Positions 1,070-25,450 of a stretch of DNA of 29,944 nt are shown here, piece by piece. Position 1 is the stretch's first letter; every line of letters begins with the position of its first letter. A model generated the notes under the pieces. That model was not told the origin of the DNA and ran no database searches. It saw only the letters and a list, made by a program, of their open reading frames with translations. Origin of the DNA: Desulfobacula sp. (lineage in GTDB: Bacteria > Desulfobacterota > Desulfobacteria > Desulfobacterales > Desulfobacteraceae); assembly GCA_011390085.1 (NCBI GenBank), contig JAABTB010000001.1:1-29944 (forward strand). The letters run 5' to 3'. The position numbers and the translations under genes were made by a program.

Positions 1070-1111
1070 TCCTGAATGATGATCCGTTAAAATCTATTTT
1101 TTATCTTTTTT
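1063..1111 (+). terminator. Possible terminator of the RecD2 gene
   Basis: A 9-bp stem with one G-G mismatch (1063-1071 with 1078-1086, 6-base loop) overlaps the stop codon and is followed by a T-rich tract (about 1087-1111). The T run is interrupted, so termination efficiency is uncertain. Confidence 0.35.
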
Positions 1112-1584
1112 TCCCAGAATCGTTTTTCCTTATCCCTCCAGTTTGTTCCGTGAAAGCGGCTGTCATAGAACCCGCCAAGCCGGTCAAACCATTTTTCCCA
1201 GGTGTTTTTCCTGCTTTCCAGGGCCTCCAGCACATCTATGACAAAAAGATCAATCTCGGCCATCTTATCCTTTGGCGCAAAATAAGCGGCCCCGTCTTCA
1301 AAGGATTTCTTCAGGCTTTCTTCCGACAAGGCATTGGCGGTGAGCATCAGGGCAGGGATCTTTTGACCATTGGCTATTTTCAGCAGGTCAAATCCTTTTA
1401 CCCCCATGATGTCCAAAATGGCGATATCATAGTTTTGCCCCTCCAGCAGCCGCCTGCCCTCCTCAAAAGAAGAGGCGGTATCGATTTTACACATATCCAG
1501 AATTTCCACTAAAGAATCCAGCACATCCGGTTCATCATCCACAATAAGAATGGTTTTGCCTTTCAGTATATTTTTGGGATTCAT
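1087..1584 (-). CDS. Single-domain response regulator (REC) with short basic tail
   Basis: This 165-residue protein is a receiver domain with no recognisable output domain. Conserved REC residues are visible: acidic pair D16-D17, phospho-acceptor D58 in AILDIMG, T82 in MLTANA and K105 in APKDK. After about residue 125 the protein continues as a Trp- and Lys/Arg-rich tail (KNTWEKWFDRL through RFWEKKIKNRF) that I do not recognise as a DNA-binding domain. An AAGGAA sequence precedes the ATG. No histidine kinase gene is adjacent; the preceding minus-strand gene (cupin) ends 32 bp upstream, so this gene may be the last one in that transcript. It could act like CheY by protein contact, or be phosphorylated by an orphan kinase elsewhere. 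The REC assignment is firm; the role is unknown. Confidence 0.85.
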   Translation of the reverse strand: MNPKNILKGKTILIVDDEPDVLDSLVEILDMCKIDTASSFEEGRRLLEGQNYDIAILDIMGVKGFDLLKIANGQKIPALMLTANALSEESLKKSFEDGAAYFAPKDKMAEIDLFVIDVLEALESRKNTWEKWFDRLGGFYDSRFHGTNWRDKEKRFWEKKIKNRF

Positions 1585-1616
1585 TTTTTTTATTCCTTAA
1601 TTTATAAAAGATACTG

Positions 1617-2090
1617 TTAAATATCGGGCTTTAAAGAACGGCCGGTAAAACGGGGTACAAAATAGGGATCGGTTTCACTGACACCAAATATAATTTCAAG
1701 ATAAGGCCTATCCACTTTTCTATGGATTAACGGACAATGTTCAAGTCCTTTGGGAATGAAGACGGCACAGGTTCTGGTCAGCATGTGTTTTTCATCCCCC
1801 AGTTGCATTTCAAGCACGGCACCGAGGCTGGCTGGATTTTTCGGGTCTGAACCCACAAAACATGAGATCGTATCGAAATGATGGAAATGAGTTGACTCAA
1901 TAGGGTCGGGATCAGGAATTGTAAAATGCCACCGTATGTCCACAAGCATGGGGCAGCCTTTTAAAAGACTTGAGTTCATAAATATCTCATATGGGAATGT
2001 TACCCCTTTTATCCCTTCACCCGGAGGAGAATCAAGGGAAACCATCATGGGATCACTGATAATATACTTTCCATACTTACTATCAGGCAA
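1617..2090 (-). CDS. Cupin-fold protein, last metabolic gene of the amine/aldehyde operon
   Basis: This is a 157-residue protein with a single cupin barrel. Motif 1 appears as H68-x-H70 followed by D73 and G80, with Asp where the consensus has Glu. Motif 2 is P113-x-G115-x-x-H118 in FIPKGLEHCPL. H68, H70 and H118 could bind a divalent metal; no signal peptide is seen. The start is taken as TTG because GGAGA lies 10 bases upstream, and the next in-frame ATG pair (residues 15-16) would still leave the barrel intact. It follows the second aminotransferase gene after a strong hairpin. Small cupins act as isomerases, decarboxylases, dioxygenases or ligand sensors, and the sequence does not say which. 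In this context it may act on an intermediate of the pathway or bind the substrate. Function unknown. Confidence 0.75.
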   Translation of the reverse strand: MPDSKYGKYIISDPMMVSLDSPPGEGIKGVTFPYEIFMNSSLLKGCPMLVDIRWHFTIPDPDPIESTHFHHFDTISCFVGSDPKNPASLGAVLEMQLGDEKHMLTRTCAVFIPKGLEHCPLIHRKVDRPYLEIIFGVSETDPYFVPRFTGRSLKPDI

Positions 2091-2118
2091 TTTTCAAACG
2101 TCTCCGTAATTTTTAAAG

Positions 2119-2160
2119 CCGGTCCGCAGGCATTCGGTTTGATAAATGTCTGCGGACCGG
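2119..2160 (-). other. Strong intergenic RNA hairpin between aminotransferase and cupin genes
   Basis: Arms 2119-2134 and 2145-2160 can pair over 16 bp (11 perfect GC-rich outer pairs, one G-U, four more pairs) around a 10-base loop. On the transcribed strand the stem is followed by CTTTAAAAATT rather than a clean U run, so it fits partial termination or mRNA stabilisation better than a full intrinsic terminator. Confidence 0.7.
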
Positions 2161-2183
2161 ACACCGTTAAAAAGCCGTCCTGT

Positions 2184-3572
2184 TTAAACACGAATACCGC
2201 TCAGGACATCGAGAAGGATATCCGAAGCCTTGTCTAAATATTTTTTAGGTGTTGTGAGGGGCGGCATAAATCTTAAAACATTTCCATAGCGCCCACAGGG
2301 CACCATAATAATCCCCCGGCCCAACAGCCCCATGATGACCTGTCCCATGAGAGGTCCATCAAAAGGCTCTTTCGTCTTTTTGTCCTTGACGAGTTCAATT
2401 CCGATCATAAAGCCCCTGCCCCGGACATCGCCGATACATTTGATCTGCTTTGCCCCTTTGAGGATTCTATTTTTAGTCTGCTCGCCAAGTTTGGCCACTC
2501 TTTTCACCAATGCATAATTGTTTTCCGTAATGATATCAATATTGGTCATACAGACTGCGGCGGAAACACCGTTGGCGGCAAAGGTATTGGGCTGGGAACC
2601 GTCAACTATTTTGTTTGCAAGGTCTTTTCGGATCGAAAGGCCGGCCATGGGAACATCACCCCCCATTCCTTTTCCAAATGTAAGCATGTCCGGTTCAACA
2701 TTGCTGTGCTCAATGGCCCACATCTTGCCGGAACGTCCGGCTCCGGACTGAACCTCATCGGCAATAAAAAGTGCGCCGTGTTTTTCACAGGATGCTTTCA
2801 ACCGTTGAAAAAATTCAGGGTTTGGCGCAAGATATCCGCCTTCACCCTGTTGGGCTTCTATGATCACCGCACCCACATCATCGGCTGCCGTATAGGGCGT
2901 GTTCAGAAGATATTCAAGATAATCGGCACACATGTCTTCACATTTTTTCTGGGTGCTGGTGCCAAAGCAGCATCGGTAGGAATAGGGGTAAGGGGCATGA
3001 ATGACGCCCGGAATAAAGGGGCCAAACCCTTTTCGGTACTGATCGCCCGTTGTCAGGGACCCGCACCCGCAATGGACGCCGTGATAAGCGCCGTGAAAGG
3101 CAATGATCTGGGACCGTCCGGTTATTTTTCTCACAAATTTGATGGCAGCCTCAAGAGCGCTGGAACCGGATTGGGTAAAATACGTAATACAATTGTCTTT
3201 AAGGCCGGGGGGCATGATGCCGGATATTTTTTTGGCCAGAGCCAGCCGCAGGGAACTGCTGCAGTCACTGCCATGCATAAGCCTGTTGGACTGTTTTTGA
3301 ATCGCATCGACAACCCTTGGATGACGTCTGCCGACTGAATTCACTGCAACCCCTGCGGTGATATCGATGAACAGATTGCCGTCCGGGTCCTTTACGGTTA
3401 CACCAAAGCCGTCGTCATAAACAAATGGAAACCGGCCGGCACCCCTTGCCATGGATTCAAATTCCGGGGCTTCCTGGAGTTGTTGGAGGCTTTTGGGGCC
3501 GGGAACAGCATCCGTTATTATTTTCGGGGCATCGGGAAAAGAAAGTTTTTCAAAATCAGATTCTGTAAGCAT
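2184..3572 (-). CDS. PLP-dependent class III aminotransferase (paralogue 2 of the operon)
   Basis: This is a fold-type I, class III (omega-amino acid:pyruvate or 4-aminobutyrate type) aminotransferase of 462 residues, the usual length or slightly longer. Visible features are the GSSALEAAIK cofactor phosphate-binding region, the GAYHG motif (161-165), D272 in ADEVQ that should contact the pyridine nitrogen, and Schiff-base lysine K301 in TFGKGMGG. The start ATG follows AGGAG at 7 bases. The protein shares its whole layout with the aminotransferase at 7799-9220, including the N-terminal PDAPKI...PGPK stretch, so they are paralogues. Related enzymes with this N-terminus and a Cys-rich insert include archaeal amino acid racemases and omega-aminotransferases, so racemase or epimerase activity is a real alternative. 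The insert here has C201, C202, C211 and C215 but Ser198 where the paralogue has Cys. It lies between dctM and the cupin gene, implying a role in metabolising the TRAP substrate. Confidence 0.9.
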   Translation of the reverse strand: MLTESDFEKLSFPDAPKIITDAVPGPKSLQQLQEAPEFESMARGAGRFPFVYDDGFGVTVKDPDGNLFIDITAGVAVNSVGRRHPRVVDAIQKQSNRLMHGSDCSSSLRLALAKKISGIMPPGLKDNCITYFTQSGSSALEAAIKFVRKITGRSQIIAFHGAYHGVHCGCGSLTTGDQYRKGFGPFIPGVIHAPYPYSYRCCFGTSTQKKCEDMCADYLEYLLNTPYTAADDVGAVIIEAQQGEGGYLAPNPEFFQRLKASCEKHGALFIADEVQSGAGRSGKMWAIEHSNVEPDMLTFGKGMGGDVPMAGLSIRKDLANKIVDGSQPNTFAANGVSAAVCMTNIDIITENNYALVKRVAKLGEQTKNRILKGAKQIKCIGDVRGRGFMIGIELVKDKKTKEPFDGPLMGQVIMGLLGRGIIMVPCGRYGNVLRFMPPLTTPKKYLDKASDILLDVLSGIRV

Positions 3573-3630
3573 TTTATTTCTCCTGTTAAATTGATAAGGC
3601 TTATTTTTGTTTATTTTGAGCCACTCAGTG

Positions 3631-4932
3631 CTACATCATTCTTTCCGGCAGCCATAACGCCAGTTGCGGAAAAATCATGACCAGCACGAGGACAGCCAAC
3701 TGCATGATCACGAAAGGCGGAACGGACTGCCAGATATGCCTTGTCGAAATATTAGCCGGTGCAACCCCTTTCATCATGATCAATGCCCAGCCAAAGGGGG
3801 GGGTAAGGTAGGCCACCTGCATATTGAGAATAAAAAGGATTGAGTACCATATGGGATCAAAACCAAGTACAATGGCAATGGGAACAAAAATCGGTGCACA
3901 TACGGTGACAACCGCATAATCGTCCATAAACATCCCCAGGATGAGCAAGATAAGCTGCATGGCGCCCAAAACAATCCAGCGGTTTATACCCAGATCGCTG
4001 ATCAGCTCCGTCACAAGAGATTGTGCCCCTTGACTGGTATAGAAAACGCTGAACAGGGTGGCACCAATCAGAATCCAGAAAACCATGCCGGTGATGGACA
4101 TGGTTTGGCGACAGGATTCCCACATTACCTTCCAGGATAATTTTTTAAGAAAAATGCAAATCAGAAATGCACCGGTTGCCCCGACTCCGGCAGCCTCGGT
4201 CGGTGTGGCAATACCCAAAAAAATGGAACCCAGCACCAGGACAATCAACAATGCCGGCAATAGGATATCTTTTAAGGATGACAGTCTGAGCGCCCAGGTG
4301 ACTCTGTCTTTAAGCGGAGGGGCCAACTCGGGCTGAATATGACATCTGACCATAACATAGAACAGATATAAAAAAGCCGTCAGAAGCCCTGGAACGACTC
4401 CGGCCAAAAAAAGTTTCCCTATGGATATTCTGGCAATATAGGCAAAGATGATCATGATGATGCTGGGGGGAATGATTTCTCCCAGCACCCCGCCGGCCAT
4501 GACCGAACCAAGGGCCAGAGATTTATCATAGGATTGTTTCAGCATGGCGGGAACCGCAATCAGTCCCATGGTTAAAATACCGGGACCAAACCCTCCGCAC
4601 ATGGCCAGTGCCACACACACACCGATGGAAACAACAGCCAAACCGCCCCGGATGCCGGATAGCCAATACCCGAGAGACTTGAACATCCGGTCGGATATGC
4701 CGGAATGAAGCAAAAAATTTCCCATGAGCAAAAAGAGCGGGATGGTAATCAGATTCGGATCCGTTATCTGCTTATAGGTTGTTGTGGCAACGATGAATAA
4801 ACTGGTTGGTCCTTCCATCAGATACGTCAGAAGAACCGTAATGCCGCCAAGGGCAAATGCCACGGGAATACCGAGAATGAGAAGGGCCATCAGCCCTCCG
4901 AACAGCAATAGGGTGATCATTTCAATACTCAT
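3631..4932 (-). CDS. dctM: TRAP transporter large membrane subunit (DctM type)
   Basis: This is the ion-coupled large permease subunit of a tripartite ATP-independent periplasmic transporter. It is about 433 residues and almost entirely hydrophobic, with around a dozen membrane segments. Typical DctM stretches are GIPVAFALGG near the N-terminus, the PPSIIMIIFAYIARISIGKLFLAGVVPG block, TPTEAAGVGA in the middle and LTPPFGWALIMMKGVAP towards the end. The chosen start is the ATG at 4932; a TTG three codons upstream is also possible, and the AAGGAA sequence lies about 3 bases from the TTG and 11-12 from the ATG. It follows dctQ by about 38 bp and precedes the second aminotransferase gene. It works with the DctP and DctQ proteins of this operon to move an organic acid or amino-acid-like solute inward, driven by a Na+ or H+ gradient. 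Confidence 0.93.
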   Translation of the reverse strand: MSIEMITLLLFGGLMALLILGIPVAFALGGITVLLTYLMEGPTSLFIVATTTYKQITDPNLITIPLFLLMGNFLLHSGISDRMFKSLGYWLSGIRGGLAVVSIGVCVALAMCGGFGPGILTMGLIAVPAMLKQSYDKSLALGSVMAGGVLGEIIPPSIIMIIFAYIARISIGKLFLAGVVPGLLTAFLYLFYVMVRCHIQPELAPPLKDRVTWALRLSSLKDILLPALLIVLVLGSIFLGIATPTEAAGVGATGAFLICIFLKKLSWKVMWESCRQTMSITGMVFWILIGATLFSVFYTSQGAQSLVTELISDLGINRWIVLGAMQLILLILGMFMDDYAVVTVCAPIFVPIAIVLGFDPIWYSILFILNMQVAYLTPPFGWALIMMKGVAPANISTRHIWQSVPPFVIMQLAVLVLVMIFPQLALWLPERMM

Positions 4933-4970
4933 AAAAATCAATTTCCTTGCCCGTCGTTAAATGGCGGTTG

Positions 4971-5459
4971 TCAGTCTCTGTTTTTAAAAAGAATATAAAT
5001 GCCTTCCAGAAAGAACAATATGGCAGCTATAGGGATTAAGATCTTTAAAGGGTATAAAGGAATCCTGAAGGCGCCATGGGCTGTTTCTCCCGATGCCAAT
5101 GAATTTTGTCCCATCCAGGCTCCTTGCCAGATCAATACTCCCATAAAACAGGCAAAAGATATCAGGCCGAATATGCTTGCAATACGCTTCATTCTTTTTG
5201 AAAACAGGTTATGAAAGATTTCTATTCTGATATGACCGTCTTTAGACATGGCATAAATCCCGGCAAAAAGGATATAAACCCCAAAAATTTGTCTGCTGAG
5301 CGGCCAGACCCAGATGGTCGGGCTGTTAAATGCATACCGTAAAACCACTTCAATGGTTGTAAAAAACATGATGACGACAATCAATATACTCAGGCCGTCG
5401 CCTGTCCTGCTGCTTATCCGGTCAATGAGATTGAAAAAAGACGTTATCCCCTTTATCAT
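4971..5459 (-). CDS. dctQ: TRAP transporter small membrane subunit (DctQ type)
   Basis: This 162-residue protein has four hydrophobic segments, the standard size and layout of the DctQ small permease, which pairs with DctM in the inner membrane. Family features are ALRYAFNSPTIWVWPLSRQIF-like text around residues 46-66 (FNSPTIWVWPL visible), a central amphipathic GHIRIEIFHN stretch and a second hydrophobic half. The ATG is preceded by AAGGAAACGACGG. A strong hairpin (5480-5511) separates it from dctP upstream, which could set a lower membrane-subunit level relative to the binding protein. dctM follows downstream. Confidence 0.9.
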   Translation of the reverse strand: MIKGITSFFNLIDRISSRTGDGLSILIVVIMFFTTIEVVLRYAFNSPTIWVWPLSRQIFGVYILFAGIYAMSKDGHIRIEIFHNLFSKRMKRIASIFGLISFACFMGVLIWQGAWMGQNSLASGETAHGAFRIPLYPLKILIPIAAILFFLEGIYILFKNRD

Positions 5460-5479
5460 CCGTCGTTTCCTTTTCTAAA

Positions 5480-5511
5480 GGTTGAAGCCGGGTTTCCTCC
5501 CGGCTTCAACC
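5480..5511 (-). other. Perfect 13-bp hairpin between dctP and dctQ
   Basis: Arms 5480-5492 and 5499-5511 are a perfect 13-bp GC-rich inverted repeat around a 6-base loop, lying 22 bp beyond the dctP stop codon and about 20 bp before dctQ. The downstream bases on the transcribed strand (TTTAGAAAAGG) are a poor U tract, so a stability or processing element, possibly with partial termination, is more likely than full termination. Confidence 0.8.
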
Positions 5512-5533
5512 CGGTTGATATGGCTATAGAAAA

Positions 5534-6586
5534 CTATTTAACCTTTCTCCAATCTTTTATCATCTTAATTGCTTCAGATGATGCAGCATCTCTCTTGGCC
5601 ACTTCATCCCAGATCTCATAGGCTATTTTTTTATGTTTCTCGATGGTTTCGGGCTCAACCCGGCTAATCTTCAAGGTACCGGCCGCCACCATTTTTTTTG
5701 CATTTTCAAATTCTTCTCCATAACCTTTTACGGTAGCCGACCAATAATTTTTAGCAGCCTGTTCAACCGCTTTTTTCAAATCATCCGGAAGGGCCTTCCA
5801 TGATTTATCATTGATCAGCATGTGGCCGATGACATGATCATTATCACCGGCCTGTACCCAATAGGGAGCGACTTCATGCCATTTAAGGCCGGATATGGCG
5901 CTGATATCCCATTGGCTGGCATCGAGTGTACCCAGCTTTAATGCCATATAGGCTTCCCCGCCGGACACATAGGTGCCCCGTGCACCGATCATATTGTGAA
6001 ACTGGGTGTATATTCCCTCGTCCCTGATTTTGACACCGTTCCAATCGCTATATTTATCCAGGGGTTTGGTTGAAAGCACAAACGGCCCGCCATAGGTATG
6101 CATATCCAGCCAGTAAAGACCGTGTTTGCCGTATTCCCGTCTTAAAAGGTCGACAAACCCTTTTTGATAATAAAAATCCCGGATAACCTCGCCTTTGGCG
6201 GCAAAGGTATCTGCCTCGGTTATGGTATAGGCAAAGGGAAGTCCGAATTCGATCTCTCCCACCGGAACAATACCCCCCCAGAATGCACCCATACAGTGCA
6301 GGATATCCAGCACACCCTTCTGGGTGGATTCAAACAACTGTTCCAGGGGCACAATCTCTGCATCTGCAAAAACGGAAATGATCAGTTTACCATTGCTGAA
6401 TTTTTTCACATCTTCGGCAAACCCCTTCAAGAGCTCAAAGGACAGATCTCCATGGGGATAACCGGATTGAAGTTTCCAGCGGTATACCTTGTCGGACGCA
6501 ACAGAAAATCCTGTTGAAAAAATACTGCAACAAATCAGGATTATAAGAAATAAAGCTAATTTTTTAACATTTGGTTTCTCTGCCAT
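5534..6586 (-). CDS. dctP: TRAP transporter periplasmic solute-binding protein (DctP family)
   Basis: This 350-residue protein has a Sec signal peptide (basic VKK, then a hydrophobic stretch to about residue 28, probable cleavage near SVAS-DK). The mature part is of the DctP family: WKLQSGYPHGDLSFE at the start, GKLIISVFADAEIVP, and G-VKIRDEG around residues 184-191, where the Arg normally forms a salt bridge with the substrate carboxylate. The ATG follows AAGGAG at 6 bases. It captures the solute in the periplasm and passes it to DctQ/DctM encoded next. The substrate is not readable from sequence. A carboxylate is expected from the family, and the neighbouring aminotransferases suggest an amino acid or omega-amino acid; a 2-oxoacid, as in the TakP branch, is an alternative. 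Confidence 0.92.
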   Translation of the reverse strand: MAEKPNVKKLALFLIILICCSIFSTGFSVASDKVYRWKLQSGYPHGDLSFELLKGFAEDVKKFSNGKLIISVFADAEIVPLEQLFESTQKGVLDILHCMGAFWGGIVPVGEIEFGLPFAYTITEADTFAAKGEVIRDFYYQKGFVDLLRREYGKHGLYWLDMHTYGGPFVLSTKPLDKYSDWNGVKIRDEGIYTQFHNMIGARGTYVSGGEAYMALKLGTLDASQWDISAISGLKWHEVAPYWVQAGDNDHVIGHMLINDKSWKALPDDLKKAVEQAAKNYWSATVKGYGEEFENAKKMVAAGTLKISRVEPETIEKHKKIAYEIWDEVAKRDAASSEAIKMIKDWRKVK

Positions 6587-6647
6587 TCTTTTCTCCTTGA
6601 CTTAATTATGTTTTTATTAAAATCCCTTCTAAAGATTAGGGGCGGGA

Positions 6648-7475
6648 TCAAAAGATGTAAACAAGGCGGAGATATGTCCAGGAGCCTTTTGTATAGGATT
6701 CGGACTCTATGTCTTGCATATATCTTAAATTGACTAAGAGATTTTCCTGTAGCATGTAGCCCAGGTTTAAGCCCAGTTTTATATTTTCTCCCTTAGTGCC
6801 GTCTATATTGATACCCCCGGCTTTGATATCGTCAAAGTCTTTCCACCAAGCAGCCTGAACACCGACTCGAAATTTTTCCGTTACTGCGTAGCCCACAACT
6901 GCCTCAAATTCAACCGCATCCGAGACATCTGCACCCGTAGCATCCTCATCTTTTTGCCAATAATTCAGACATACATCCAGAGAAAAGGGAGCAGGATACC
7001 AGCCCAGGGCAATCTGGTGCTGAAACCACCAGGAGTCGTTGCTGACTTCACTGGAACCTGTCGGAGTAGAGGCAAATTCCCAAAAAGAAAGAAAAAGCTG
7101 ATCTTCGAAATTTTCATACAGGAAGATAAATGGGCCAGCTACTATGTCTCCTATGCCGGTCTCACTATCCGCTCCATCAATGCTGATGTCCAAAAGTGGA
7201 AGAACTGCGTTGACACCCCAGGTTTTTCCAAACACTTTTCCTGCAAAATAAACGGGCCTGAATGCAGCATAGGCGATATCAACACCGATATCCACTTTGG
7301 TGCCGTCCTGATTTTCATACTCCGGCAGGTGCTGAAAACCAAAATAGGTGACAAGAACTTTTGTTCCAACAGGCGCTGAGCTGTTGTCCAGCGGGTCTAA
7401 AACATCTGCCCGGCATATTGGGCGAATTGCCATAAAAAACACAATAATAGATAAACAAATTAGCAGTTTTTTCAC
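6648..7475 (-). CDS. Outer-membrane beta-barrel, MetA/phenol-degradation transporter-like
   Basis: This 275-residue protein has a signal peptide (MKKLL through about residue 23, ending ICRA) followed by alternating amphipathic strands, many aromatic residues and a C-terminal Phe, as expected for an outer-membrane barrel. The overall pattern (VLVTYFGFQHLPEYENQDG, then GVNAVLPLLD, GIGDIVAGPFIFLYE, DVCLNYWQKDE, NLGYMLQENLLVNLRY) resembles the family annotated as transporter of the meta pathway of phenol degradation (COG4313). The start is GTG with AGGAGG 7 bases upstream. It lies between the MoaD-like gene and dctP, so it may be the outer-membrane entry pore for the TRAP substrate. Members of this family are mostly known for aromatic or hydrophobic compounds. 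Barrel assignment is good; substrate is unknown. Confidence 0.8.
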   Translation of the reverse strand: MKKLLICLSIIVFFMAIRPICRADVLDPLDNSSAPVGTKVLVTYFGFQHLPEYENQDGTKVDIGVDIAYAAFRPVYFAGKVFGKTWGVNAVLPLLDISIDGADSETGIGDIVAGPFIFLYENFEDQLFLSFWEFASTPTGSSEVSNDSWWFQHQIALGWYPAPFSLDVCLNYWQKDEDATGADVSDAVEFEAVVGYAVTEKFRVGVQAAWWKDFDDIKAGGINIDGTKGENIKLGLNLGYMLQENLLVNLRYMQDIESESYTKGSWTYLRLVYIF

Positions 7476-7552
7476 CTTGTTCCCTCCTTGATTTAATTGC
7501 AGAAAAAAAAATTTCCCAGACCGCCTTTTATTTAATACGGATAATCACTTTA

Positions 7553-7798
7553 TCACCCCCCGGATATTAATGAGAAAACATGGACCGTCATCCCATCAGT
7601 AAGTATATTGTCATGTTTAAGGGGACGGTTCCCATCACTGATAAGTCCTATATGGGTCATCGGTATCCGTAAATGTTTCAAAATATCCTCAGGCGTAACA
7701 CCATCCGGCACCTCAATCGCAATACCTGTTTTATGGTTGTAATCGGTCACCCTCAGGCTTAAGGTACCGAAAAGCCGGACTGTCAGTTGCACGGTCAT
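7553..7798 (-). CDS. MoaD/ThiS-like ubiquitin-fold sulfur carrier protein
   Basis: This 81-residue protein has the beta-grasp pattern of MoaD/ThiS: LTVRLFGTL at the N-terminus, VPDGVTPEDILKHL, then DGMTVHVFSLISGG with the terminal Gly-Gly that is adenylated and thiocarboxylated in this family. Its ATG begins directly after the TAA of the preceding aminotransferase gene (TAAATG), suggesting coupled translation. In MoaD the thiocarboxylate supplies the dithiolene sulfurs of molybdopterin. AOR enzymes carry a tungsten bis-pterin cofactor, and many anaerobe AOR operons carry a dedicated MoaD-like gene. I infer that it serves the AOR encoded two genes upstream. Thiamin or protein-modification roles cannot be excluded. 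No MoaE or MoeB gene is in the window. Confidence 0.85.
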   Translation of the reverse strand: MTVQLTVRLFGTLSLRVTDYNHKTGIAIEVPDGVTPEDILKHLRIPMTHIGLISDGNRPLKHDNILTDGMTVHVFSLISGG

Positions 7799-9220
7799 TT
7801 ATCCGGCCATGGTCCAATTCAGGCTGAATCTTGCCATATCAATGGTTTCAAGCACTTCGGCAATAATATCAATGCCTTTGTCAACCAGTGCTTTTGATAT
7901 GGTAAGCGGCGGAATGACACGTAAGATATTGCCATATCGGCCGCAGGGAAGAACATAGACCCCATTGTCCCTCAGCAGCCACACCATGCGGACAACCTCT
8001 GCCGTTGACAGGGGTTTTTTGGTTTTTTTATCACTGACCAATTCCAGGGCAATACCCCAGCCCATCCCCCTGACATCACCGATGACTTCCCGCTGCTCAG
8101 CCAATGTCTTGAGTCTTTTCATGGCATAGGCCCCCATTTCCCGTGACCTTTCCAGCAATCCATCCTGAACCAGCTCGATATTCTTGCAGGCAACTGCGCA
8201 GGACATGGAATTTCCAACTGCCGTGAGGACATGGCTGAAGGGTTCCAGATCCTTGACCAGATCCGATCGGCATAATACGGCGCTAAACGGCAGGTCCCCG
8301 CCCAATGCCTTTCCCATGGTGATAATATCCGGTTCCACGTCAAAATTTTCCACGGCAAACAGGGTTCCGGTGCGTCCCATTCCCATCTGTACCTCGTCAT
8401 CGATGATGAGGATTCCCAGGCGTTTGCATAAATTGTAAATATATTTCATCCATCCCGGCGGAGGCGGTACATATCCTCCTTCACCCTGCATGGGTTCAAG
8501 GATGAGGGCTGCCACATTGCCGATATCAATTCCGCCATAGGGATCAGTCAACTGGAATTCCACATATTTGGCACATTGAAGATCACATTCAGGATGGGTA
8601 AGCCCATAGGGGCAGCGGTAGCAATAGGGATAAGGCCCCAACCGATCCACAAAGGGCATAAAGGGCCGGTATTTGCTTCGAAAGGTGGGAGAGGTCGTCA
8701 ATGAAAGCGTCGTACCGATGGAGCCATGATAGGCGCCTTGAAAGCCGAGGATGATCGATTTCCCGGTTGATGCCCGGGCGAATTTGATGGCAATTTCATT
8801 GGCGGAGCTGCCGCTTAACCCATAAGCCATCTTAACATTTCCCTTAAGGCCGCCCGGGGCCAGTCCGGAAAGCATTTCTCCAAGTTTCTGGCGGTGTTTG
8901 CAGGTACCGTCCGGCGTATGCATGAGGCGGCCGCATTCATTTTTAATCACCTTAACAATTTCAGGGTGGCAATGCCCCACATTGTTTACGGCAACACCGG
9001 ATGAAAGATCGATATAGATATTGCCGTCCGGGTCTTTGAAGGTGGCCCCAAAGGCTTCTTCCCAAGCCAGGGGGATACCGATGGGAGCAATCCGGGTGGG
9101 GGTTTCATTGGCCAGTTCTTTGTCCAGAAGAGCCCTTGTTTTGGGGCCGGGGATGGATTTTGTTACAATTTTAGGGGCATCCGGATAGGACAGTTTATCA
9201 AAATACTCTTCAGAAATCAT
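7799..9220 (-). CDS. PLP-dependent class III aminotransferase with four-cysteine insert (paralogue 1)
   Basis: This 473-residue class III aminotransferase has GLSGSSANE for cofactor phosphate binding, GAYHG near 162-166, D275 in IDDEVQMGMGRTG for the pyridine nitrogen, and the Schiff-base lysine K304 in TMGKALGG. The expected reaction is transfer of an amino group from an amine, omega-amino acid or amino acid to a 2-oxoacid such as pyruvate. An insert at residues 196-216 carries C200-x2-C203-x8-C212-x3-C216, which could bind a metal or be structural; archaeal racemases and aminotransferases of this class have similar text. The ATG has AAGGAG at 7 bases. It sits 28 bp after the AOR gene and abuts the MoaD-like gene. 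With alanine dehydrogenase two genes upstream, a pyruvate-dependent transaminase producing alanine and an aldehyde is the most coherent role. Amino acid racemase is the main alternative. Confidence 0.9.
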   Translation of the reverse strand: MISEEYFDKLSYPDAPKIVTKSIPGPKTRALLDKELANETPTRIAPIGIPLAWEEAFGATFKDPDGNIYIDLSSGVAVNNVGHCHPEIVKVIKNECGRLMHTPDGTCKHRQKLGEMLSGLAPGGLKGNVKMAYGLSGSSANEIAIKFARASTGKSIILGFQGAYHGSIGTTLSLTTSPTFRSKYRPFMPFVDRLGPYPYCYRCPYGLTHPECDLQCAKYVEFQLTDPYGGIDIGNVAALILEPMQGEGGYVPPPPGWMKYIYNLCKRLGILIIDDEVQMGMGRTGTLFAVENFDVEPDIITMGKALGGDLPFSAVLCRSDLVKDLEPFSHVLTAVGNSMSCAVACKNIELVQDGLLERSREMGAYAMKRLKTLAEQREVIGDVRGMGWGIALELVSDKKTKKPLSTAEVVRMVWLLRDNGVYVLPCGRYGNILRVIPPLTISKALVDKGIDIIAEVLETIDMARFSLNWTMAG

Positions 9221-9248
9221 TCATCGTCTCCTTTTTTATCATTCGCAT

Positions 9249-10958
9249 CTAAAACGCATTCACTTTATCAAGATCTTCGTCTGATACATCAAAAACATTT
9301 CCCGAAGGCAGCAAGGGTTCTTCTTTGAAAAATAAAGGAAGACGGTCATCTTCTTTGGTGAAACCGGCCCGGGTGTTAAAATCCCTTTCTGCTTTCAGCG
9401 CACTGATCCCGAGTTGCTTGATATAGTCTTTATCAAGGGATTCCCCATACAGGGCGGCAACCCCCTGAACCACATGTCCCTGAAGGTCGGCAAAATCAAG
9501 GGCCGGCAGTGAAGCAAACAGACAAAGTCCAAGGCTGTCTATTGCAGCATGATAGATCTGCAGAAAAGAGGATATCTGCCACTGTCCCTGGGATGATGAC
9601 GGATCATATTGTGATAAGGGATTGGGAATGGCGTTTCCAACGGTATGGTCAGCGCCCATGGCTGATGTGGCGTAGGTGGTGCCCGTGCCCTTGAGACCTC
9701 TTGGGTCATAGGCCGCCAGGCTCTGGCCTTTCACATGGGGGATTCGTTTTGAACCCAGCTTTTCACCGGTTGTTTTGCAACCGTTACCGAGCATGAGACC
9801 GTTTTTCGATCCTGAGCCGATTTCCTTTACCAGGGACAGGGCAGCGTTTCCATCCCCCATCTTCAGAAGCCCTCCCTCCATGGCAAGGGCGATGGCCGCT
9901 CCCACATCCATGGTATCAACGCCGATATCATTGCAGGCGCGATTGATTTTGGCAATGGTATCAATATCATCAATCATGCAATTGGAACCGGTCAGAACAA
10001 TGGATTCATATTCAAGCCCGGAAACAATGACCTCGCCTTTTTCATCGGTAAATATATTTGAACAGCCGATGATACAACCGGCCATACATTTATGATCTGA
10101 GACGGAATTGGGCCGGTCGGCCATCAATCCGGCAATATATTCTCCGGAAATTTTATGGGCCCCGTCAAATTGGCCTATGGAGTAATTACGGGTCGGCAGA
10201 CATCCCAGAGCATTGATCATATTCACCAGAACAGGGGTGCCAAATACTTTCAGGGCTTCAATCATCGGATAGGCCAAGACTCCCTTGGTAAATTTTGAAA
10301 CTGCCGATTTAAATGCTTCCTTATCCCGGATTTTAACCCCCTTGGTGCCCTGGTCGTCAATAATGACGGCTTTGATGTTCTTTGACCCCATTACCGCACC
10401 CATACCGCCTCTTGCCGCCATTCTGATATGAAAATCAGGAGAGGTGACGGAAACCGATGCTGCTTTTAATTTTTTTTCTCCGGCAGGCCCTATGGAAATA
10501 ATGGCTACCTTATCCCCATGCTCTTGTTTTAAATTTTCAATGACTTGATAATTACCCATGCCTTTTATGGAATTCGCTTGCATGAACGTGACCCCTTGGG
10601 TATCTATTTTCAAGGTGGTCAGCTTATCTGCGCATCCTTCGAGAACAATTGCCTGAATCCCCAGTTTCGGCATCTTTTGTGCAGCGCTCCCACCCGCATT
10701 CGCCTCTTTTATCCCTCCGGTTAGAGGGCTCTTGGCACCCACCGATAATCTTCCGCTGTTGGGGAAATTCGTGCCGGCTAAAATTCCCGCTGCAAATATC
10801 AATTTGTTCCGGGGGTCCAGTGCATCCACTGTGGGAGGCACTTCCCGATTGATAATCTGCGAACTTAACGCCCTGCCGCCCAGTTTAGCGTATTCCGGAG
10901 ACAATTTCTCAAAAACATAGCTTTGTTTTCCCAAATCAATCCTCAACAATTTCAACAT
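9249..10958 (-). CDS. aor: Aldehyde:ferredoxin oxidoreductase (tungsten pterin enzyme)
   Basis: This 569-residue enzyme of the AOR family oxidises aldehydes to carboxylates and passes electrons to ferredoxin. Its cofactors are a tungsten (or molybdenum) bis-pterin and one 4Fe-4S cluster. Typical stretches are FPNSGRLSVGAKSPLTGG, AARGGMGAVMGSKNIKAV and the central DIGVDTMDVG. Likely cluster ligands are C291, C295, C299 and C479. The spacing C-x3-C-x3-C differs from the C-x2-C-x3-C of Pyrococcus AOR and probably marks a subfamily. The reading frame extends 47 codons further upstream, but the start at 10958 is chosen because AGGAGG lies 6 bases before this ATG and because MLKLLRIDL is a normal AOR N-terminus. 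It follows ald and is followed by the aminotransferase and MoaD-like genes. The substrate may be the aldehyde made by transamination; the direct substrate is not known. Confidence 0.93.
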   Translation of the reverse strand: MLKLLRIDLGKQSYVFEKLSPEYAKLGGRALSSQIINREVPPTVDALDPRNKLIFAAGILAGTNFPNSGRLSVGAKSPLTGGIKEANAGGSAAQKMPKLGIQAIVLEGCADKLTTLKIDTQGVTFMQANSIKGMGNYQVIENLKQEHGDKVAIISIGPAGEKKLKAASVSVTSPDFHIRMAARGGMGAVMGSKNIKAVIIDDQGTKGVKIRDKEAFKSAVSKFTKGVLAYPMIEALKVFGTPVLVNMINALGCLPTRNYSIGQFDGAHKISGEYIAGLMADRPNSVSDHKCMAGCIIGCSNIFTDEKGEVIVSGLEYESIVLTGSNCMIDDIDTIAKINRACNDIGVDTMDVGAAIALAMEGGLLKMGDGNAALSLVKEIGSGSKNGLMLGNGCKTTGEKLGSKRIPHVKGQSLAAYDPRGLKGTGTTYATSAMGADHTVGNAIPNPLSQYDPSSSQGQWQISSFLQIYHAAIDSLGLCLFASLPALDFADLQGHVVQGVAALYGESLDKDYIKQLGISALKAERDFNTRAGFTKEDDRLPLFFKEEPLLPSGNVFDVSDEDLDKVNAF

Positions 10959-10964
10959 ATTGAC

Positions 10965-10970
10965 CCTCCT
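10965..10970 (-). promoter_or_regulatory. Ribosome binding site fixing the AOR start
   Basis: A perfect AGGAGG stands 6 bases before the ATG at 10958. This rules against the longer reading frame beginning at 11099, which would overlap the end of ald. Confidence 0.85.
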
Positions 10971-11002
10971 TAAAACTGATTTTTCTAATTTGCCATAACC
11001 TG

Positions 11003-11043
11003 TAATGATCACCTGCCCCATCTCAACGCACGGGTGATCATTA
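11003..11043 (-). other. Intergenic hairpin between ald and AOR genes
   Basis: Arms 11003-11015 and 11031-11043 pair over 13 bp (one G-U) with a 15-base loop. On the mRNA the ald stop codon TAA forms the first bases of the 5' arm. There is no U run after the stem, so it is a candidate processing or stability element, or a translation-coupling structure, not a terminator. Confidence 0.7.
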
Positions 11044-12147
11044 AATGTCAATGGGGAAATATTCATACCCCGTTGCCATGGCAACGGGTTTATTAACAAC
11101 TTTGCCGTTACAGATATTCAGCCCTTTTTTCAAGGAAGGGTCCTCTTGCATTGCCTTTTTCCAGCCCTTATCAGCAATCGCGACAGCATAGGGCAGAGTC
11201 GCGTTTGTCAAGGCAAGCGTCGAGGTTTTAGCGACTGCACCGGGCATGTTTGCCACACAATAATGAATTACGCCGTCAATGGTATAAACAGGGTCGGAAT
11301 GGGTTGTCGCTCTTGAGGTCTCAAAACATCCGCCCTGGTCGATGGCAACATCCACCAGCACAGATCCTTTTTTCATTGTTTTCAGGTCTTCTTTTGTCAC
11401 CAGCCTCGGTGCTTTCGCTCCGGCTATGAGAACAGCACCGACAACGACGTCCGCCTCTTTGATCAGCTTTCTGATGGTGGCAGGGCTGGACATCATGGCA
11501 ATACAATTTGCCGGCATAATATCACTGAGATAACGTAAACGATCCAGATTCATATCCAGAAGATAGACTTTTGCACCCAGGCCACAAGCCATTTTAGCTG
11601 CATTGGTGCCCACCACGCCGCCGCCGATGACCACCACCATGCCGGGCTCGACACCAGGTACGCCCCCCAGGAGAATCCCGTTTCCCCCCTGGGCCATTTC
11701 AAGATATTTCGCACCCTGCTGAATTGCCATCCTGCCGGCCACTTCACTCATGGGCGTCAGCAGGGGAAGTGAGCCATCCTCTTTTTCAATCGTCTCATAG
11801 GCAATACAGACGGATTTGCTGTTCTTCAGGGCGCCTGCCAGTTCCTTTGCAGCAGCCAGGTGCAGATAAGTAAAAACGATTTGATTTTCCCTTATCAGAT
11901 CGTATTCTGACGGCAACGGTTCCTTGACATGCATCACCATTTCACAGTCTTCAAAAATCCGTTCAGGTGTTGCAGCAATGGTTGCCCCGGCACTGACATA
12001 TGAGGCATCTTCAAACCCGCTCCCACTACCTGCATTTTTTTCAACCATGACCTTGTGGCCGTTCCGTACCATCACCTCTGCACCCGATGGCGTCATTGAA
12101 ACCCGATTTTCCGCTTCTTTGATTTCTTTTAAAATACCTATCTTCAT
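11041..12147 (-). CDS. ald: Alanine dehydrogenase
   Basis: This is NAD-dependent L-alanine dehydrogenase: L-alanine + NAD+ + H2O gives pyruvate, ammonium and NADH. The 368-residue length is normal. Key residues sit at the positions known from characterised enzymes: R15 and K75 for pyruvate binding, catalytic H96 in TYLHLA, the nucleotide-binding GGGVVG at 175-180 and D198 at the end of the second strand. The start at 12147 ([10 protein letters not shown]) is preferred over the ATG four codons earlier because GGAG lies 6 bases upstream of it. It is the first gene after a sigma-54 promoter and is followed by AOR. In this setting it probably regenerates pyruvate as amino acceptor for the two aminotransferases and releases ammonium, as it does beside taurine:pyruvate aminotransferase in other anaerobes. 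Confidence 0.96.
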
Positions 12148-12153
12148 CTTTTT

Positions 12154-12157
12154 CTCC
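12154..12157 (-). promoter_or_regulatory. Ribosome binding site deciding the ald start
   Basis: GGAG is located 6 bases before the ATG at 12147 and is itself part of the upstream ATGGAG. The upstream ATG (12159) has no Shine-Dalgarno sequence of its own. Confidence 0.7.
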
Positions 12158-12203
12158 ATGCTTGATAAAATATAAAATCCAGCGATAAATATTCATGATG
12201 ATG

Positions 12204-12219
12204 AGCAATAATCGTACCG
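12204..12219 (-). promoter_or_regulatory. Sigma-54 (-24/-12) promoter for the ald-AOR-TRAP operon
   Basis: The minus strand reads CGGTACGATTATTGCT. The invariant GG (12218-12217) and GC (12206-12205) are separated by exactly 10 bases, and the flanks match TGGCACG-N4-TTGCA except at a few variable positions. The predicted transcription start is near 12193, about 46 bases before the ald start codon. Two activator-type dyads lie upstream and the gene next upstream encodes a sigma-54 activator, which strongly supports the call. Confidence 0.8.
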
Positions 12220-12305: not shown

Positions 12306-12323
12306 TGGGTCAAAAATGTCCCA
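12306..12323. promoter_or_regulatory. Upstream activator site 1 for the sigma-54 regulator
   Basis: The 18-base dyad TGGGTCAAAAATGTCCCA has 7-base arms with one mismatch, centred about 121 bp upstream of the predicted start. It shares GGGTCAAAAA and the 16-base spacing with site 2. This is the expected distance for an enhancer-like binding site of a sigma-54 activator. Confidence 0.7.
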
Positions 12324-12375: not shown

Positions 12376-12392
12376 TGGGTCAAAAAAGACCC
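12376..12392. promoter_or_regulatory. Upstream activator site 2 for the sigma-54 regulator
   Basis: TGGGTCAAAAAAGACCC contains a perfect GGGTC-N6-GACCC dyad, centred 70 bp from site 1 and about 191 bp upstream of the predicted start, immediately after the stop codon of the activator gene. Confidence 0.7.
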
Positions 12393-12401: not shown

Positions 12402-14744
12402 TTATATTAACCCATATGTTTTCATTTTTCTGAAAAGTGTTTTCCTGGAGATGCCCAGAGCTTTTGAAGTTTTGCCTTTTTTCCACCGATTCTGATTTAA
12501 TATATCCAGGATATGATTTTTTTCAAAATCCCCCACGATTTTGATTAAAGGGATGACGCCCTCTGCATGAGTTTCAGCCTGATGTTCCGGATTGCTCCCG
12601 ATAGCTGTTCTTTTTACAGGCGATGCTTCCAAAAAATCAAGGGTTTTAAGAGTGATATACCTGCGGAGAACATTCTGTAATTCACGAACATTTCCCGGCC
12701 AGCTATAATTTTTCAGTATTATCAGGTCTTTGGGGGTCAACGGGGTAACGGAATTGGATTTAGAGTATGATTTTAAAAAATGGTCTACGATGAGAAAAAT
12801 ATCATCCCCCCTTTCCCGAAGCGGCGGCAGATGGATGGGCAGGACATGAACCCTGAAAAAAAAGTCGGTTCTGATGTGTCCTTTTTTTACAAGTTCCATC
12901 AGATCCTTATTAGAAGCTGTAAGAATTCTTAAATCCGGTTTTTTAACCTCTGTACTACCGACGGGGGAGTACCCGCCCCCGTCGATGGCTCTTAAAAGTT
13001 TCACCTGGAGGGATGGGCTGATCTCACCAATTTCATCAAGAAATAGGGTTCCGCCATCCGCCATATCCAGATAGCCTTTTTTATCCACATGGGACCCTGT
13101 GAAGGCGCCTTTTTTTGAACCGAAAAATTCATTTTCTATAAGATTTTCGGGAATGGCACCGCAATTCACAACGACAAATTCTTTACCGCTACGGTCCGAA
13201 GCATTATGGACGGCCCTTGCCAACAGCTCTTTTCCGGTTCCTGATTCTCCATAGATGAACACGCTGTCGTTGCTTCCGGCGGCTTTGAGGATCAGATCAT
13301 AAACATCCTGCATGGCCTGGCAGTTTCCGATGATATTGTCGAATTTATATCTATCTTTGATGGTAGATCTCAGATACCGGTTCTCTTGTCTGAGTTTTTG
13401 CTCCATCTGCTTGAACACCGTAAAGTCGGTAATAAACCCTTCAATGGCTACAAGTTTGTCATCATCAAAAAGCACCCCCTCTGCTTTATCAAAAACCCAT
13501 TTTATATTACCAAGGGGATTCATGATGCGATATTCAGTCATAGAGGGCTCTCTTTGTCTGGTGATGGCATTGAACATCTCTTTGCCGACCCTTTCCATAT
13601 CATCCGGATGAATCAATGTCTTGAATTCCTGAAGGCATTTGCCCATAAAAAAAGAAGGTTCATACCCGGTGACAAGGCTGCTTCCGTTACTGACAAACTC
13701 CACCTCCCAATTTTCCTTTTTTATTAATCGATAGGCCATGCCGGGCAGATTATTCATCAGGGTGGATAATTTCCGTTCGCTTTCAATGACTCTTTTTTCA
13801 ACAGTTTTGATATGAGTGACATCACGGATAGACTCAATTGCACCGACAGACAGGCCATCCCGGTTTAAGATTGGAGTTGCAGTGATCCATGCATATCCTC
13901 CCTTCCCAAGATTCATTGATCGAATAAATTTTTCTGAAAACAGCAATTTTCCGTTTCGGGTAATTTTAAAATTTCTGAATACCGGGTTTTCCGATTCCAG
14001 GTTTAACAGATCGATAAGCAAAGGGACGTCGTCATGGTAGAATGGGGTAATGAATTCATAAAAAGGCTTCCCCATGGCTTTGTCTTTAGGAATGTGCAGC
14101 ATTTCCTCAAGTGCATTATTCCAGGCAATGATGGTTTTGTTATTGTCTACAACATAGGTGGGGTCCGGCAGAAAATCAATAATCTCCTGCAAGCGCCGCT
14201 GAGAATTCTTAAGTTCAATGGTTCTTTGTTCAACCAATTCTTCCAAATGCTCTCGATATTTTTCAAGTTTTTCCGCGACTTTGCATTTTTCAGTGATATC
14301 CCTTGCTATCCCTTCCACAAAGATCACTTGGTTGTTTTCATCAAAAATCGGAGTTTCAATAACCACGAGTCTTCGGGAAGATCCGTCCTTATGAAACACA
14401 TCAACCTCATAAGGGGGCTGCCGAAATCCCTGAACACTTAATTCCGTATGCTGGCGGGCCGTTTTATTCCCCGGGTGATCTGTCCAGACCTCATCCACCC
14501 TTTTTTTATATTCATCCGGGGTATATCCTAAAATATTTTCTATGGAAGGGCTTAGAATGGTAAAGGTTTTATTGGTGTCGTGGGTAAAGAAAATAAATTC
14601 ATTTTTAAGATTTTCCAGCATCCGGTTGTAACGGTCTTCGGTCTCAACTCGTAATTTTTTTTCGTTGCCCGGATTTAAGGAAGGCCTTTCATTCGTTTCC
14701 AATGGTTCGGTCAATTTTATCAATGATTCTTGTGCCATTTGCAT
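12402..14744 (-). CDS. PAS-domain sigma-54-dependent transcriptional activator
   Basis: This 780-residue bacterial enhancer-binding protein has three PAS-type sensor domains (about 40-155, 183-312 and 322-445), the first two joined by a coiled-coil-like EKLEKYREHLEELVEQRT segment. An AAA+ sigma-54 interaction domain follows (about 468-700) with Walker A GESGTGKE (499-506), the sigma-54 contact loop GAFTGS (546-551, usual sequence GAFTGA), Walker B GGTLFLDEIGE and the arginine-finger FRVHVLPIHLPPLRER region. The end is a Fis-type helix-turn-helix (about 740-778, TSKALGISRKTLFRKM). No receiver domain is present, so the signal is probably sensed by the PAS domains, possibly a small ligand. It lies directly upstream of ald on the same strand. 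The dyads and sigma-54 promoter in the gap indicate that it activates the ald-AOR-aminotransferase-TRAP operon. The start has GAGG 8 bases upstream. Confidence 0.93.
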   Translation of the reverse strand: MQMAQESLIKLTEPLETNERPSLNPGNEKKLRVETEDRYNRMLENLKNEFIFFTHDTNKTFTILSPSIENILGYTPDEYKKRVDEVWTDHPGNKTARQHTELSVQGFRQPPYEVDVFHKDGSSRRLVVIETPIFDENNQVIFVEGIARDITEKCKVAEKLEKYREHLEELVEQRTIELKNSQRRLQEIIDFLPDPTYVVDNNKTIIAWNNALEEMLHIPKDKAMGKPFYEFITPFYHDDVPLLIDLLNLESENPVFRNFKITRNGKLLFSEKFIRSMNLGKGGYAWITATPILNRDGLSVGAIESIRDVTHIKTVEKRVIESERKLSTLMNNLPGMAYRLIKKENWEVEFVSNGSSLVTGYEPSFFMGKCLQEFKTLIHPDDMERVGKEMFNAITRQREPSMTEYRIMNPLGNIKWVFDKAEGVLFDDDKLVAIEGFITDFTVFKQMEQKLRQENRYLRSTIKDRYKFDNIIGNCQAMQDVYDLILKAAGSNDSVFIYGESGTGKELLARAVHNASDRSGKEFVVVNCGAIPENLIENEFFGSKKGAFTGSHVDKKGYLDMADGGTLFLDEIGEISPSLQVKLLRAIDGGGYSPVGSTEVKKPDLRILTASNKDLMELVKKGHIRTDFFFRVHVLPIHLPPLRERGDDIFLIVDHFLKSYSKSNSVTPLTPKDLIILKNYSWPGNVRELQNVLRRYITLKTLDFLEASPVKRTAIGSNPEHQAETHAEGVIPLIKIVGDFEKNHILDILNQNRWKKGKTSKALGISRKTLFRKMKTYGLI

Positions 14745-21368: not shown

Positions 21369-21373
21369 GGTGC

Positions 21374-22315: not shown

Positions 22316-22412
22316 AATCATCCTCCTCTTTTTTCAACACTCCCTGGATCGGGAAAATCCATACTAATGGCTAATCTCTTATATTTCAAGGATAAAACGG
22401 AATTGAAATCGG

Positions 22413-25449: not shown

Positions 25450-25450
25450 C

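Follow-up and report, generated by a model that had tools for sequence, protein, structure and literature searches.

What could bring an alanine dehydrogenase (Ald), an aldehyde oxidoreductase (AOR), two class III aminotransferases and a tripartite ATP-independent periplasmic (TRAP) transporter together in one row of genes? The question is raised by a 29,944-nucleotide stretch of contig JAABTB010000001.1 (the window, in what follows), which comes from a Desulfobacula-like metagenome-assembled genome (MAG) of 2.47 Mb in 498 contigs, 57% complete. An earlier note on this DNA described eleven consecutive minus-strand genes, and open reading frame (ORF) calling together with Pfam searches confirmed them at 1087-12159. 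Read from 12159 down to 1087, they encode Ald, AOR, a first aminotransferase (AT1), a MoaD/ThiS-like protein, an outer-membrane barrel, DctP, DctQ, DctM, a second aminotransferase (AT2), a cupin-like protein and a receiver protein; intergenic gaps within the set are 0-93 bp, and 242 bp separate it from the gene of a sigma-54 activator. We consider it on balance probable that this is a sigma-54-activated operon by which an amino compound is taken up and oxidatively deaminated. To the broader proposal that Desulfobacterota have a dedicated, ferredoxin-yielding oxidation of amines or amino acids, with an AOR clade fixed to an aminotransferase-TRAP unit and three interchangeable types of aldehyde oxidiser, we give even chances.

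In the scheme that we favor, DctPQM would import the amino compound, and AT2 (here with AT1) would make an aldehyde from it by passing the amino group on to a keto acid, for which pyruvate is the most likely candidate. Ald would turn the resulting alanine back into pyruvate, freeing ammonium and NADH, while the single-subunit AOR, with the MoaD/ThiS-like protein as cofactor helper, would oxidize the aldehyde to a carboxylate and reduce ferredoxin, which would feed a presumably sulfate-reducing metabolism. The PAS-type activator, bound at two dyads, would switch the operon on. The scheme builds on the families of the genes, their co-localization, a conserved promoter with its dyads and the exchange of the AOR for other AORs or for an aldehyde dehydrogenase; from these we infer the aldehyde product, the pyruvate acceptor, ferredoxin, tungsten and the match between regulator and dyads.

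Recurrence of AT2 with a transporter and an aldehyde oxidiser

We searched 389 sampled genomes of the class with AT2 as the query (E-value threshold 1e-140; a few first-look candidates scored per genome) and obtained 21 loci in 19 genomes; among 297 genomes of the phylum, the window's own genome was the only match. Around all 21 loci, the context was read to the limit set by the contig or by a 20-kb stretch. TRAP genes, at least dctM, adjoin AT2 in 19 of the 21 loci, and an aldehyde oxidiser is present in 15. It is an AOR in the window and in genomes G005, G007, G036, G012, G018, G020, G049, G173, G206, G258 and G040, although those of G036 and G020 are pieces at a contig end and that of G040 is distant (29%) and lies beside a split gene that, by eye, resembles an iron alcohol dehydrogenase. 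In three genomes of one other genus (G046, G055, G080), a PF00171 aldehyde dehydrogenase, encoded divergently from dctPQM-AT2, replaces the AOR; among NCBIfam models, it scores best with those for aminobutyraldehyde, phenylacetaldehyde and betaine-aldehyde dehydrogenases, without reaching the cut-off of any. Four loci end at contig edges (G009:C60, G019, G014:C113, G014:C66), and two AT2 modules are found in each of G009 and G014. A further module, Ald-AT2-AOR-DctPQM, is present in MAG GMC4_bin_23 (L045). The order of genes varies between lineages; because of this, the linkage is more than inherited order. The suggestion of the earlier note that aminotransferase, TRAP transporter and aldehyde oxidation belong together is thus borne out by repeated co-localization in varied orders and by the substitution of other AORs or an aldehyde dehydrogenase, and the data support, as the predicted conserved unit, one class III aminotransferase (AT2) with a TRAP transporter and an aldehyde oxidiser.

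The AOR itself was followed with two peptide patterns, which named at least 80 loci; all 80 were scanned for neighbors, and 15 entered a tree of the quick kind with 57 rows, from which rows covering less than 85% of the query were dropped. This tree omits the AOR pieces of G020 (L155) and G036 (L178), and it places the window genome's own L001-L004, G040 and other long rows unsurely. The window AOR belongs to a clade of 10 rows (support 100) from nine genomes and GMC4_bin_23. Eight of the 10 share a contig with AT2; in G009 and G014, the AOR is on one contig with AT1 and TRAP genes, and a different contig carries AT2. The module AORs of G018 and G012 form a second lineage together with the second AOR of the window's genome (L044), and the G020 piece was assigned to it as well. 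On its short contig, the L044 AOR has no adjoining aminotransferase. Rows within one genus are not independent, so we counted kinds of enzyme and not 15 events. The strongest evidence is that different aldehyde-oxidizing enzymes accompany one aminotransferase-TRAP unit, which argues that AT2 would produce an aldehyde.

Two further AOR loci can be recorded here. L044 (G000:C14, 2781-6503; G000 is the window's own genome) combines its AOR with a zinc alcohol dehydrogenase-like protein, a ThiS/MoaD-like protein and a small protein resembling MftB, the mycofactocin chaperone, as judged by eye. L059 (7847-12872) holds a set like that of L044 followed by a radical SAM-like protein, also named by eye.

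Conservation of the operon and its upstream region

Parts of this operon were found in six relatives: G005, G007, G009, G014 and G019 from the same genus, and G036 from another genus of the family. The order in these relatives is [activator]-[Ald]-AOR-AT1-MoaD-DctPQM-AT2-cupin-receiver; the operon is split over contigs in G009 and G014 and cut by a contig end in G019 and G036, and the activator gene is at the matching place in G005 and G014. Among the matches listed, proteins named Desulfobacula sp. are close to the window's AOR (85% identity) and AT2 (89%). AT1 has orthologues at 86-90% identity in G005, G007, G009 and G014, that is, in 4 of the 25 other genomes of the genus searched, and also in G036; it was found only in Desulfobacula-type operons. 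Relatives of the MoaD-like protein (52-59% identity) occupy the same place in five orthologous operons. The cupin gene adjoins AT2 in G005, G009, G014, G019 and G036, and a relative with 50% identity lies near the AOR-AT2-TRAP set of G173. The receiver gene follows AT2 and the cupin gene in G009 (L158), G014 (L159), G019 (L156) and G036 (L178) and was not found there in G005. The five relatives that cover the interval between the MoaD-like gene and dctP (L039, L040, L041, L042, L178) have no barrel there. G007, G009 (in two modules), G049 and MAG GMC4_bin_23 have Ald; in G005, a match of 27 residues between activator and AOR (L040, 14349-14429) is its remnant, and the promoter is kept. The eleven genes, which the earlier note had treated as one unit, are not conserved as such: the barrel is absent from the spanning relatives, AT1 is limited to one lineage and Ald is accessory. 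From the order ald-AOR-aminotransferase-moaD-TRAP, what recurs is AT2, the TRAP genes and an aldehyde oxidiser, whereas Ald, AT1 and the barrel are not constant.

Upstream of ald lies a -24/-12 site that is weak by score (10 of 12 matches; about 2.4 such sites are expected per shuffled window, counting both strands). It is conserved and aligned in register in every upstream region long enough to include it, four in all (window, G005, G009, G014), whether Ald has been lost or not; the G007 contig starts too late to include this region. Two enhancer-like dyads lie about 90-170 bp upstream of the site in the same four genomes. The dyad GGGTC-N6-GACCC is perfect in the window and G009, has GGGAC in G005 and contains one mismatch (AGGTC) in G014. 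The pattern of the other, TGGGACATTTTTGACCC, occurs genome-wide exactly once in each of G000, G005, G009 and G014, always at this place; it was not found in G007, G019 or G036, whose operon contigs stop short of the region, and its reversed control is absent from the 7 genomes. Tandem dyads with a promoter are the trace that would be expected from a dedicated sigma-54 activator with a putative enhancer. Thus, the sigma-54 control proposed in the earlier note gains support from the conserved site, from the tandem dyads in four of four upstream regions and from the PAS/Sigma54_activat/HTH_8 gene upstream, an AAA+ activator that would presumably bind these dyads. In other module types, 8 of 11 upstream stretches lack a -24/-12 site with a score of at least 8, and three have one (G014:C66, G046, G173). 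In four modules (G018, G014:C66, G009:C41, G049), a divergent gene resembling that of the window's sigma-54 activator is accompanied by one for a large hybrid histidine kinase.

Several observations weigh against the scheme set out above. In the stretches read, TRAP genes were not found beside AT2 in G308 and G040, and no aldehyde oxidiser was found at G308 or at G009:C41, which has Ald and no AOR in 20 kb. In the orthologous operon of G014, and in what was read of G206, G173, G012 and G018, no Ald was seen; given these four loci and the losses in G005 and G014, a local Ald that recycles pyruvate is not a necessary part of the module. The role of pyruvate recycler that the earlier note gave to Ald fits the scheme, but in those two orthologous operons Ald is missing or a remnant. 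Neither aminotransferase reaches the cut-off of any of the best 25 of 69 NCBIfam models, which gives no basis for assigning a specificity, and the scheme leaves the presence of two aminotransferases in one operon without explanation. In an alignment of DctP from the 14 modules with a full-length gene, the W-D-x-S motif is invariant, and the usual TRAP arginine is present in 10 and is lysine in four; because of this replacement, the modules may differ in substrate. Substrates probably do differ among modules, because G009 and G014 each hold two of them.

Aminotransferase chemistry and candidate substrates

We aligned 22 aminotransferases (17 AT2, 3 AT1 and 2 more distant ones). AT1 and AT2 both belong to class III (Aminotran_3), with whole-domain PF00202 matches and the pyridoxal phosphate (PLP) lysine in the GKALGG/GKGMGG column, and both also retain the arginine of an LR/FR-x-x-P-P/S-L stretch. 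Conserved over the 17 AT2 rows are YHGV, QGEGG, the PLP lysine and the arginine of a (V/F/I)RFMP stretch. In gamma-aminobutyrate (GABA) and ornithine aminotransferases, the arginine of YHGR binds the distal carboxylate. At this position, we found valine in all 17 AT2 rows and in 119 of the 120 AT2 database relatives listed (the window's own included; one is without a motif match), and serine in all three AT1 rows. On account of this replacement, canonical use of GABA, ornithine or acetylornithine by either enzyme appears disfavored. A small acceptor such as pyruvate would fit better than 2-oxoglutarate, because the carboxylate-site arginine is missing and Ald is often present. The best solved relative of both enzymes is an aminotransferase of the PDB 7vno type, which we take to be Pyrococcus horikoshii PH1423; it has arginine (FHGR) where AT1 and AT2 have serine and valine.

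The nature of the closest solved relatives also bears on whether these proteins are aminotransferases in function, as they include an Ala/Ser racemase and an isoleucine 2-epimerase. In a racemase module, the class III proteins would interconvert D- and L-amino acids brought in by the TRAP transporter, Ald would deaminate L-alanine and the AOR would do no more than detoxify aldehydes from other sources; an alanine racemase with Ald would make a simple D-alanine route. However, the epimerase and the racemase read QGDGG and QGDAG, and the aspartate, the second catalytic one of the epimerase (Asp222 is described as a catalytic residue in PMC6053490), is replaced by the glutamate of QGEGG in all 17 AT2 and all 3 AT1 rows and in 119 of the 120 listed AT2 relatives (one without a motif match), a comparison that covers two racemases only. 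Moreover, a racemase leaves the several kinds of aldehyde oxidiser at AT2 unexplained, and we regard this alternative as unlikely. Still less credit is due to mere neighborhood, that is, a general detoxification AOR lying by chance beside an unrelated amino-acid uptake operon. AORs are indeed numerous in the relatives (119 of 145 genomes matched at E 1e-60), but the linkage recurs across several families of the order and with the genes differently arranged, the 10 rows of the AOR clade are all in such modules, and elsewhere an aldehyde dehydrogenase takes the place of the AOR; chance is thus a very improbable explanation. A sulfonate route, in which taurine, hypotaurine or another sulfonate is used and the AOR stands in for Xsc, turning sulfoacetaldehyde into sulfoacetate, can point to taurine:pyruvate aminotransferase and alanine dehydrogenase as a known pair in taurine breakdown and to TRAP transporters that carry sulfonates (PMC6453916). 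Against it stand G012 and G049, which have an AT2-AOR-TRAP module and, separately, an Xsc gene (TIGR03457 over cut-off) accompanied by a class III aminotransferase of its own (Tpa, to judge from its neighbor), 30-32% identical to AT1 and AT2. Because these genomes keep the separate locus, taurine appears unlikely as the substrate, and we rejected it as the leading reading; the argument bears on taurine and not on hypotaurine or other sulfonates, and the sulfonate route as a whole seems to us quite improbable.

Genes beside AT2 in other modules suggest that aromatic acids may be involved in some of them. A PaaK-like ligase (TIGR02155, 491 bits; cut-off 646), a molybdopterin oxidoreductase and, by eye, an IclR-type regulator are encoded close to AT2 in G206, and G308, from a different family, has relatives of each of the three close to its AT2 (L151, 14511-19343; L182, 11984-18560). 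A UbiD family decarboxylase adjoins AT2 in G012 and G040, with TIGR00148 over cut-off in G040 (L153, 66-1424; L183, 3305-8045). An aromatic amine or amino acid could accordingly be the substrate, with the AOR or aldehyde dehydrogenase yielding an arylacetate and then a CoA thioester; the module aldehyde dehydrogenase, as noted, scores best, below cut-offs, for aminobutyraldehyde and phenylacetaldehyde dehydrogenases. However, no such PaaK-like, UbiD, molybdopterin or IclR neighbors occur in the window-type operons, G308 is without TRAP genes or an aldehyde oxidiser at AT2, and substrates may vary between modules. As an account of the window, the aromatic route is rather unlikely. The G308 neighborhood also contains a GltD-like Fe-S oxidoreductase, and in G040, UbiX and a second class III aminotransferase are beside AT2 as well.

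For the uptake and deamination of an amino compound, the reading that we prefer, a hint at the ligand comes from sensor kinases of related modules. The hybrid kinase of G018 carries dCache_1, and the kinases of the other three modules are 66-73% identical to it (L152, L154, L157, L043). By eye, from the spacing of residues and with PctA itself left unaligned, all four have the positions matching PctA W128, Y129, Y144 and D173, which are common to amino-acid and amine sensors; Arg126, which binds the ligand carboxylate in PctA, has Ser or Thr as its counterpart in all four, two residues ahead of the WY tryptophan, again by eye. This hints at a ligand with an amino group and with a carboxylate that is absent or bound otherwise; the kinase is absent from the window. 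These dCache_1 kinases could represent a further dCache ligand subclass. The closest PDB chain to DctP is 2zzv, followed by 7e9y (named lactate-binding TTHA0766), and DctP is a member of the same TRAP family as 2zzv. Our guess at the substrate is a weak one: an amine or amino acid, not taurine, whose acid group escapes the GABA/ornithine-type arginine. We commit ourselves to the mechanism, not to a compound.

The earlier note had set the module apart from the taurine route by the absence of Xsc. This is correct for the window but not for the genome: the Xsc-family model TIGR03457 is matched over cut-off in 5 of the 16 genomes searched, the window's own included. In that genome, matches are on contigs C291, C177 and C453, with none on the window's contig C1; weaker matches, below cut-off, are found in all 14 control genomes too. 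Matches over cut-off include G000:C291:464-2161 (on a short contig), G005:C78:4170-5867 and G020:C8:9665-11362; the G005 and G020 loci have a second, weaker family enzyme and SDR-like (short-chain dehydrogenase/reductase) genes alongside, and no aminotransferase was seen there.

Gene identities and relation to known systems

Features of the operon and its upstream region, in window coordinates
Feature	Position	Strand	Basis or remark
Single-domain receiver protein, accessory	1087..1584	-	PF00072 8.6e-11
Cupin-like protein, accessory	1617..2090	-	weak PDB cupin matches, best E 0.002
AT2, class III aminotransferase, conserved core enzyme	2184..3572	-	PF00202 9.1e-98
DctM, TRAP large permease	3631..4941	-	PF06808; TIGR00786 over cut-off
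DctQ, TRAP small permease	4971..5459	-	PF04290
DctP, TRAP solute-binding protein	5534..6586	-	PF03480
Outer-membrane barrel (Phenol_MetA_deg-type)	6648..7475	-	PF13557 4.6e-27
MoaD/ThiS-like protein, probable WorX	7553..7798	-	C-terminal Gly-Gly; weak PF14451
AT1, second class III aminotransferase, lineage-specific	7799..9220	-	PF00202 4.6e-92
AOR large subunit, Class I-like	9249..10958	-	PF02730 + PF01314 (AFOR_N + AFOR_C); PDB 9mqx, 1aor
Ald, alanine dehydrogenase, accessory	11041..12159	-	PF05222 + PF01262 (AlaDh_PNT_N + C)
-24/-12 sigma-54-type site	12204..12219	-	CGGTACG-N4-TTGCT; ~45 nt upstream of ald
Enhancer-like dyad TGGGACATTTTTGACCC	12307..12323	-	one copy per genome, at this operon
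Enhancer-like dyad GGGTC-N6-GACCC	12377..12392		perfect in window and G009
PAS-type sigma-54 activator, presumed regulator	12402..14744	-	PF00158 4e-59 (Sigma54_activat), PAS domains, HTH_8

Pfam matches back the identities that the earlier note had assigned to Ald, the AOR, both aminotransferases, the barrel, the receiver protein and the TRAP transporter, of which DctP, DctQ and DctM form a complete set. The MoaD-like and cupin-like labels depend on weaker matches, as neither protein has a Pfam match above the curated cut-off; the former label comes from a weak Ub-Mut7C match (E 0.03), a C-terminal Gly-Gly and the position beside the AOR. The AOR ORF that begins at TTG 11099 is over-long: because most homologues among the matches listed have about 569 residues, the true start is probably ATG 10958. 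The protein aligns with solved AORs over its length and contains the CX3CX3C cluster cysteines, GLEYE, GADH and GLCLF; the CX3CX3C spacing was considered as a novelty of this AOR and dropped, being common to many unlinked AORs. With an AFOR_N + AFOR_C large subunit and cluster cysteines, it has the features that define the Class I tungsten-containing oxidoreductases (WORs) and AORs, and its family suggests that the metal would be tungsten. No WorS or WorN subunit gene was found among the eleven genes. Elsewhere in the window are a row of MoxR-type ATPase, DUF58 and DUF4129 genes (18817-22321) and a Mrp-type cation/proton antiporter operon (22413-28120) with MnhG, MnhE, Proton_antipo_M, Oxidored_q2, MnhB and a MnhA-like protein with MbhD/MbhE.

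Each step of the scheme is known chemistry, and the combination looks undescribed: searches of open-licence PMC literature turned up no paper in which AOR, aminotransferase and TRAP are brought together, and the earlier note had not recognized the gene set as a described pathway. The module may nevertheless be common, because beyond the closest relatives the database listings (best 120 each) fill with AORs of about 61-68% identity and AT2 relatives of about 64-69%. According to PMC13328260, a physiological role has been defined for a member of only five among 92 tungsten-oxidoreductase clades. If our reading is true, an uncharacterized clade would gain such a role, and one open to testing, as the AOR is found together with genes for uptake, for an amino-group acceptor cycle and for a dedicated regulator. 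It would also indicate that dissolved amino compounds can serve such anaerobes as a source of ammonium and low-potential electrons.

Among known systems, taurine dissimilation is one comparison; its TRAP transporter is TauKLM. The taurine set has in common with the window the logic of a pyruvate-type aminotransferase, recycling by Ald and TRAP uptake (as presented in PMC6453916). In contrast, the window module is without Xsc and would send its aldehyde to the AOR, and its aminotransferases are as far removed from the Xsc-linked ones of G012 and G049 as stated above. A second comparison is with Aromatoleum aromaticum, where an AOR takes part in anaerobic phenylalanine degradation alongside an aldehyde dehydrogenase and where MoaD-like genes are in the operon (PMC6365974). 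An AOR-family enzyme in amino-acid breakdown and a MoaD-like gene in the operon are thus common to both. However, the Aromatoleum AOR has three subunits and uses NAD (PMC10413684) and is listed as Class III (PMC13328260, Table 2), whereas the window has one AOR subunit, class III aminotransferases and TRAP genes in the operon, and no keto-acid decarboxylase among the eleven genes. A third comparison is with the Class I WORs (PfAOR and relatives), which have WorL as their only subunit and in some cases a ThiS-like WorX encoded close by, and whose characterized members are assigned to detoxification or glycolysis (PMC13328260); the word aminotransferase does not occur in the main text of that paper. 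WorL alone and a ThiS-like gene are what the window shares with them, and what sets it apart is a dedicated uptake-transamination operon.

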